From Synechococcus sp. WH 8109 (lineage in GTDB: Bacteria > Cyanobacteriota > Cyanobacteriia > PCC-6307 > Cyanobiaceae): DNA of 64,000 nucleotides. Where the stretch lies: contig NZ_CP006882.1 of assembly GCF_000161795.2 (NCBI RefSeq), forward strand, positions 1,674,001-1,738,000. Reading direction: 5' to 3'. The translations under genes and the position numbers were made by a program. Shown piece by piece: positions 11,759 to 16,043 of this stretch. Below the pieces are notes generated by a model. It saw nothing but the letters and a program-made list of their open reading frames with translations, did no database searches and was not told the DNA's origin. How positions within the stretch are numbered: the first letter of the stretch is position 1; each line of letters starts with the position of its first letter.

Positions 11759-12112
11759 TCACTCAGGGCTTTGCAAGCCTGATTTCAGAAAAGCAATTTC
11801 CTTGTAGACCCTATCAAGCTCGTACAACGTTTTTGTTTCCTTCTTTTCAAGGATTTCAACCCGCTTCAACAGATCCTCCAACAGTTTGTTTTGCAGAGAT
11901 TCAACCTGGACTTGCCTTTTTTGCACGCCTTTTGACGGAGCGGAAGCCGTGCTGGCTGGAGAAAGAATGCCTCCATCCGTTTCGACGTACAACAACGCAA
12001 GACGCTCCAACACCTTGGAGTAGGCCTTGTCTTGCTGTCGACAGAGGGCCTTGAAACGCTGCAGCGTCTCTGGAGCGAACTGGGCGGCAAAAGCTCCGGG
12101 GCGCTGGGGCAT
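11759..12112 (-). CDS. Small helical / coiled-coil protein, possibly DNA-binding
   Basis: An ATG at 12112 gives 117 residues. Residues 1-45 (FAAQFAPETLQRFKALCRQQ, KAYSKVLERLALLYVE) look like a ribbon-helix-helix or helical domain. Residues 65-117 (VQVESLQNKLLEDLLKRVEI, LEKKETKTLYELDRVYKEI) form an obvious coiled coil. I know no family name. In-frame ATG at 12178 would lengthen it across unlikely-looking sequence. A 36-base palindrome lies about 100 bases upstream of the start, so autoregulation is a reasonable guess. It is downstream of groEL but separated by a terminator. Confidence 0.55.
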   Translation of the reverse strand: MPQRPGAFAAQFAPETLQRFKALCRQQDKAYSKVLERLALLYVETDGGILSPASTASAPSKGVQKRQVQVESLQNKLLEDLLKRVEILEKKETKTLYELDRVYKEIAFLKSGLQSPE

Positions 12113-12208
12113 TTGTCCCGACACAACGTTACACAGCAAGACGCTAGCCGGCGCGTCTCCACACCTCACATCCTCCATGGCCGGCACCAACGCTGCCCCC
12201 CAGGCACC

Positions 12209-12244
12209 ACATGTCTTGTAAGAACTAGTTCTTGCAAGACATGT
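12209..12244. promoter_or_regulatory. 36-base near-perfect palindrome
   Basis: The left half begins ACATGTCTTG and the right half ends CAAGACATGT, around the central self-complementary core AAGAACTAGTTCTT. Only one base pair of the 18 mismatches. There is no loop and no T-run, so it is not a simple terminator. It lies upstream of the coiled-coil gene and downstream of the groEL terminator. A dimeric or tetrameric operator is the likeliest reading; function is inferred. Confidence 0.6.

Positions 12245-12333: not shown

Positions 12334-13968
<1,635 letters not shown>

Positions 13969-14045: not shown

Positions 14046-16043
<1,998 letters not shown>

Follow-up and report, generated by a model that had tools for sequence, protein, structure and literature searches.

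A conserved palindrome behind groESL in marine Synechococcus, a putative operator of a ribbon-helix-helix-like protein gene

Within the 64-kb stretch of Synechococcus sp. WH 8109 DNA analysed here (in the following called the window), we found a 36-bp near-perfect palindrome, O1, that is probably the operator of the gene following it. As judged from sequence comparison, the product of this gene, a 117-aa protein with a ribbon-helix-helix (RHH)-like N-terminus, would occupy each operator with two dimers and is a putative autorepressor. With this assignment, an uncharacterised, lineage-restricted family of proteins from abundant marine cyanobacteria would gain a testable role, that of a transcription factor with a precise DNA target.

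Results

A near-perfect palindrome between groESL and a small gene

O1 lies at positions 12209-12244 and consists of two 18-nt arms with a gap of 0 nt. The arms are 94% complementary, with 17 of 18 Watson-Crick pairs and one mismatch, exactly as counted in a preliminary description of this DNA. Among the ungapped 36-bp dyads with at least 14 of 18 pairs, O1 is the only one in the window. A chance origin was rejected because 20 first-order Markov samples of the window contained no dyad better than 15 of 18 pairs, and a mobile or repeated element was rejected because the genome of 2,111,515 bp holds a single copy of O1.

Read along the minus strand, groES and groEL (12334-13968) are followed by a terminator-like hairpin with a T-tract (12280-12259), by O1 and then by the gene for the 117-aa protein. 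The hairpin belongs to the groESL operon and separates it from the RHH gene. From the near edge of O1 to the ATG of this gene (12112) the distance is 97 bases, close to the ~100 bases estimated before. O1 itself has no T-tract and is missing from the sites found in a scan for terminator-like structures, and a terminator-like hairpin already adjoins it. We therefore rejected O1 as a terminator, in agreement with the earlier judgment.

Conservation of the O1 core

We searched 34 genomes of the genus for orthologues and obtained a protein match in 19 of them and none in the remaining 15. Thirteen of the 19 are close orthologues (83-100% identity, one on a truncated contig), and all 13 keep a core of O1, GTCTTG-N16-CAAGAC with a central CTAG (12213-12240). 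In the general form GTMTTG-N16-CAAKAC, the core is found exactly at the locus in 11 of them, and the other two, G012 and G022, are one base off, with the left half-site differing at its first base in G022. The left half-site begins 128-130 bases ahead of the start codon in every close orthologue. The full 36-mer is not conserved and, with up to 3 mismatches allowed, was matched in the window's own genome alone. The conserved unit is a core of 28-30 bp with a CTAG-like centre and fixed spacing rather than the whole 36-mer; of the 36-base element originally proposed, it is this core that stands.

Column identity in the two 7-base arms of O1 amounts to 0.95 and 0.97 and in the central CTAG to 0.94; for the bases between the arms and the centre it is 0.65 and 0.69. 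Across the terminator hairpin and the 8 bases following it the value is 0.90, and between terminator and O1 it is 0.53. In one orthologue (L007), both arms show a paired change, yielding GTATTG/CAATAC. Such a pattern, in which the arms and the centre hold their positions and the intervening bases vary, agrees better with a protein-DNA site than with an RNA hairpin, for which pairing of the inner bases would be needed. When each close orthologue is considered by itself, the dyad lies above the 95% level of 60 shuffles in just five of the 13 (the window, L002, L005, L011 and L012), so that the case rests on conservation, not on symmetry alone. The centre of O1 reads TAnnnT in eight of the 13, the window not being one of them, and might cover a second -10 box there.

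A second site and a candidate promoter

A second, weaker and imperfect site with the same geometry as O1, absent from the preliminary description, was identified directly in front of the gene. This site, O2 (GTCTTG-N16-CGGGAC, 12115-12142, minus strand), ends 3 bases ahead of the ATG. It surfaced in a search of the window's own genome that allowed two mismatches to the O1 core. As this search yielded 80 genomic matches, and the reversed control 131, O2 is unremarkable when considered alone, and it is its place and conservation that speak for it. The GTMTTG of O2 lies exactly 30 bases ahead of the start codon in all 13 close orthologues. When the 15 gaps from 4 to 18 were scored, N16 was best with 51 of 78 letters, followed by 34 for the next gap, a score to which the 13 orthologues contribute as related and hence not independent sequences. 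The right half of O2 matches 3-4 of 6 letters and may be kept for translation instead. A pattern made from the O2 block had one match, at the locus, in each of 13 of the 34 genus genomes, and the reversed control had none; because the pattern was derived from the same sequences, this result shows uniqueness and is not independent support.

Inside the spacer of O2, a candidate -10 box, TAACGT (12126-12131, minus strand), was recognised by eye. In 11 of the 13 close orthologues the box, again read by eye, is TATnGT or TATnGA. A sigma-70 scan found no promoter. The distance between O1 and O2 is 98-100 bp, or about 9.3-9.5 helical turns, and because this is not a whole number of turns we did not adopt DNA looping between the two sites.

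An RHH-like N-terminus followed by a long helix

The gene (11759-12112, minus strand) encodes a protein with an RHH-like N-terminus (residues ~4-45), a linker and a long C-terminal helix (68-110). It is under purifying selection, with for instance 16 synonymous and 0 nonsynonymous codon changes compared to L002.

The Pfam families RHH_9 and RHH_10 gave 12.6 and 12.8 bits for the window protein, with cut-offs of 23.4 and 27, respectively, and no cut-off of a curated RHH family was reached by it. At E ≤0.1, ParG is matched by nine of the 29 family members and RHH_9 likewise by nine (best E 0.0022 and 0.0028, respectively); the window protein itself has no ParG or RHH_9 match at this level. A sequence search of the PDB with the N-terminal 50 residues returned ParG as the best match (E 0.011); next, at E 0.026-0.027, came two entries for an unrelated protein from eukaryotes. 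With the full-length profile, the PDB yielded a designed helical protein (E 0.00046), a UPF0335 protein (0.0013) and ParG (0.015), the first two matching over helices only, mainly in the helical tail. There was no match to a NikR family in Pfam or NCBIfam at E ≤10. A PHROG annotated as "Arc-like repressor" was matched by two of the 29 members (best E 5.4e-5), and phrog_5354, for which no function is assigned there, gave a weak match to residues 17-94 of the window protein (E 3.5e-5). A phage origin was rejected, since tblastn against phage records produced no match and a scan of viral contigs no relative.

In the structure models, helices are predicted for residues 14-26 and 31-44, and the C-terminus forms the single long helix given above. 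When Foldseek was queried with the modelled N-terminal domain, its first 11 rows were chains of ParG, CdbA, PutA, CopG and CopASO, all of them RHH proteins. The top row, ParG, had a probability of 0.82; the best E-value of 0.63 is not significant. In VIA-align, RHH domains fill most of the list as judged by eye, with a top Z of 5.0; these lists are second looks, and families off the list may match as well. The full-length model gave four matches in the PDB (best E 5.3), none of them useful. The ribbon segment appears as a short helix and not as a strand in both models (monomers, of modest confidence at pLDDT 64-66), which counts against the RHH assignment but may reflect the modelling as a monomer. 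Overall, in sequence and model the N-terminus resembles an RHH domain, below curated thresholds, and a long C-terminal helix is predicted to follow. The earlier idea of a possibly RHH or coiled-coil protein thus holds as an RHH-like domain with a helical tail, an assignment that is weak by sequence and below the Pfam cut-offs.

Association of O1 with the gene

We inspected the region behind groEL in 11 genomes lacking the gene and found the GTMTTG site absent from all 11 readable loci; eight of these genomes are at least 98% complete, and one locus (L059) provides 166 bases downstream only. Because the whole interval differs in the gene-less genomes, this result is to be read as co-loss of gene and site, not as loss of the site alone. 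The expectation that the palindrome is conserved along with the protein was borne out for the core, by its presence in all close orthologues and its absence from these loci, but not for three further members in the same genus (L015-L017), whose proteins are 59-62% identical and which are without the GTMTTG dyad.

Outside of the locus, the strict core pattern occurs at 13 sites in the 34 genus genomes vs 16 for the reversed control, and hence nothing points to a wider regulon. One off-locus site recurs at the same place in G002, G014, G023 and G033 and, with one mismatch, in G000. It lies inside a long open frame in all four inspected loci (L078, L087, L093 and L023) of these five genomes, and because of this location in a coding frame we took it as a coincidence and rejected it as a regulon member. 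The frame is presumably that of a glyceraldehyde-3-phosphate dehydrogenase, as it reads like one.

What follows groEL varies between genomes, and in several that lack the RHH gene other frames occupy this interval. The loci showing the variation are L051, L053, L056, L057, L102 and L103; in the latter two, frames that we named by eye as sulfotransferase-like come after the RHH gene.

Distribution of the family and its distant members

Of 400 genomes sampled from the taxonomic family, 37 contain a match to the protein family. In a sample of the class, 14 of 388 genomes gave a match, one of them outside the taxonomic family and weak (E 8.6e-4). Twelve of the 13 close orthologues have the gene behind groEL, as do L015, L016, six g9 and two g34 genomes. 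No groEL is present in the stretches of L017 and of nine distant loci (L018-L021 and L046-L050). The one exception among the close orthologues is L006, from the single-cell genome G014, in which the terminator hairpin, O1, O2 and the gene are all kept. The stretch upstream of them has no groEL match, with the last codons alone recognisable by eye, and indicates a rearrangement or an assembly fault.

For the distant members, 20 distinct upstream regions were examined. We treated L097, L098, L099, L101, L104 and L106 as apparent copies of counted regions, judged by their matching dyads, and left L105 out of the count due to a short match and an uncertain frame. Among L107-L113, a frame was found in L107, which was used in protein alignment A4 alone; L108-L113, L114 and L115 were outside the analysis. 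An inverted repeat spanning ~30 bp was found in 10 of the 20 regions (six g9 genomes, L046, L047, L049 and L050) and none in the other 10 (L015, L016, L017, L018, L019, L020, L021, L038, L039 and L048), with L016 possessing a 24-bp dyad instead. By alignment, all six g9 genomes share TGTnTAG-N16-CTAT, the arms of which complement each other over three or four bases only. The dyad of L047 is GTATCTA-N16-TAGATAC, that of L046 is TGGTATCTA-N15-TAGATACCA with a span of 33, and L049 and L050 have GCCTATACA-N12-TGTATAGGC. Considered singly, the dyads of L041, L044, L046, L047 and L049 are within the 95% level of 60 shuffles, and the 30-bp dyad of L050 is narrowly above it (9.0 vs 8.5).

At ribbon residue 11 the close clade has Gln, whereas 17 of the 18 other rows in the alignment have Asn. 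The comparison of these sequences suggests that site and protein changed together across lineages. Expanding on this, the proteins may be picocyanobacteria-specific RHH/coiled-coil autoregulators that kept a two-turn frame of ~28-30 bp and rewrote the half-site as protein and operator co-evolved, with GTMTTG belonging to Gln11 and the TGTnTAG, TATCTA and TATAGGC types to Asn11. We put this reading forward tentatively, as a possible but doubtful one. If true, the gene would have settled downstream of groESL in three genera or more, and the co-evolving family would offer a small set of natural variants from which the RHH recognition code could be read. A joint change of operator and protein would then be a natural experiment in which RHH specificity shifts with the geometry kept.

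The proteins of L018-L021 are 26-36% identical and combine an RHH-like start with a different tail (SITTRG...MLERLERVE). They possibly form a second subfamily.

Discussion

Proposed mode of action

What we observed here are the dyads, the constancy of their geometry, their association with the gene and an N-terminus resembling RHH domains. From these observations we infer that the protein is the binder of O1, that it forms a tetramer and that it represses. Its C-terminal helix would associate into a coiled coil and thereby join two RHH dimers, which would sit on the two GTMTTG half-sites of O1. The centres of these half-sites are 22 bp apart, about two helical turns, so both would be presented on the same face of the DNA. 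The weaker O2 would be bound by the same protein, which would then cover the candidate -10 box and reach the start codon, and the accumulated protein would in this way shut off its own promoter. O1 could serve as a high-affinity reservoir, or it could cover a further promoter upstream.

Comparison with known systems

Two articles describe NikR as an RHH tetramer bound to an inverted repeat of 27-28 bp with the half-sites at its ends, the ribbon being placed into the major groove of each half-site (PMC545781, PMC4486848). The O1 core GTCTTG-N16-CAAGAC is also 28 bp long, with its 6-bp ends 16 bp apart. In contrast to NikR, our protein has no match to a nickel-binding domain and possesses the long C-terminal helix instead, and the half-site is GTMTTG. 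A "very large operator" had been regarded as a novelty of this locus; with a core of 28-30 bp it has the frame already published for the NikR sites of 27-28 bp (PMC545781).

TrcR (All0854) of Anabaena PCC 7120 is presented in PMC10272220 as an autorepressing cyanobacterial RHH protein, which means that a self-regulating protein of this type, likewise thought to be new, was already in print for a cyanobacterium. Following the same text, its site ATACTACACTTGTATTAC is protected from -53 to -28 and overlaps its own -10 box, and TrcR has several other targets. Both cases concern a cyanobacterial RHH or RHH-like protein and a conserved site that covers the -10 box of its gene, the box being a candidate in our case; in contrast to the several other target genes given for TrcR, we found no off-locus excess. 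TrcR is likened here by description, and the profile of our RHH domain had one weak match outside its own taxonomic family among the 388 class genomes. With the autoregulation of TrcR and the 28-bp operators of NikR published, an RHH autorepressor with such an operator is a known kind. The pair of palindrome and gene would be a tidy and fairly ordinary genetic switch and reveals no new kind of system.

Another small RHH protein from the same group of organisms is FciC of marine Synechococcus. In PMC3877281, it is introduced as an RHH-domain protein of 55-67 aa that is encoded in the chromatic acclimation island and suggested to be a regulator. It differs from the protein described here in its length (55-67 vs 117 aa), and the word "palindrome" does not appear in that article. 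Our literature search found no paper on this gene or palindrome, which does not prove their absence from the literature.

Alternative explanations

O1 and O2 could also be the operators of another, trans-encoded regulator that controls this gene alone, the RHH protein itself acting elsewhere. Regulators with a single target exist, and the role of the RHH protein as the binder is one that we infer; still, we consider this arrangement rather unlikely. The GTMTTG dyad shows no off-locus excess (13 vs 16 for the reversed control) and was not found behind groEL in any of the 11 readable gene-less loci, dyads of another sequence but of similar span are carried by more distant members, and the half-sites differ where ribbon residue 11 differs, Gln vs Asn. 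Even without any DNA-binding protein, the palindrome could function as an RNA hairpin in a leader or readthrough transcript, with effects on processing, stability or attenuation. The gene strand folds with -12 kcal/mol or below in six of the 13 orthologues, and G-T pairs, which RNA tolerates, are frequent at the inner positions 11-15 (in up to seven of 13). However, the predicted energies spread from -16.3 to -5.4 kcal/mol, inner pairs are few in L006, L009, L010 and L013, and the best-conserved bases outside of the arms are those of the self-complementary centre, the would-be loop. As there is also no T-tract, and a conserved terminator hairpin is located just upstream, a function at the RNA level appears quite improbable.

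The similarity to ParG (PDB 1p94), the closest PDB sequence match of the N-terminus and the first Foldseek row, leads to the third possibility, that O1 is a chromosomal partition or nucleoid site of a ParG-like protein rather than part of a gene switch. The letters NVNF in the ribbon of L046 are shared with the ParG segment, and a single copy of O1 agrees with such a site. ParG is, however, a plasmid partition protein, whereas the gene described here is chromosomal, lies next to groEL, encodes a C-terminal helix and has no partner gene recognised with it; by eye, none of the neighbouring frames was recognised as a ParA/ParF-type partner. Moreover, the protein has no match in 15 of the 34 genomes of the genus, and the placement of O2 at the start codon is that of a gene switch. 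A role in partition is, in our view, very improbable.

At the other end of the groESL operon, the region upstream of groES contains a further inverted repeat, TTGGCACTC-N9-GAGTGCCAA (14409-14435), which we take to resemble the CIRCE element, the heat-shock operator of HrcA.
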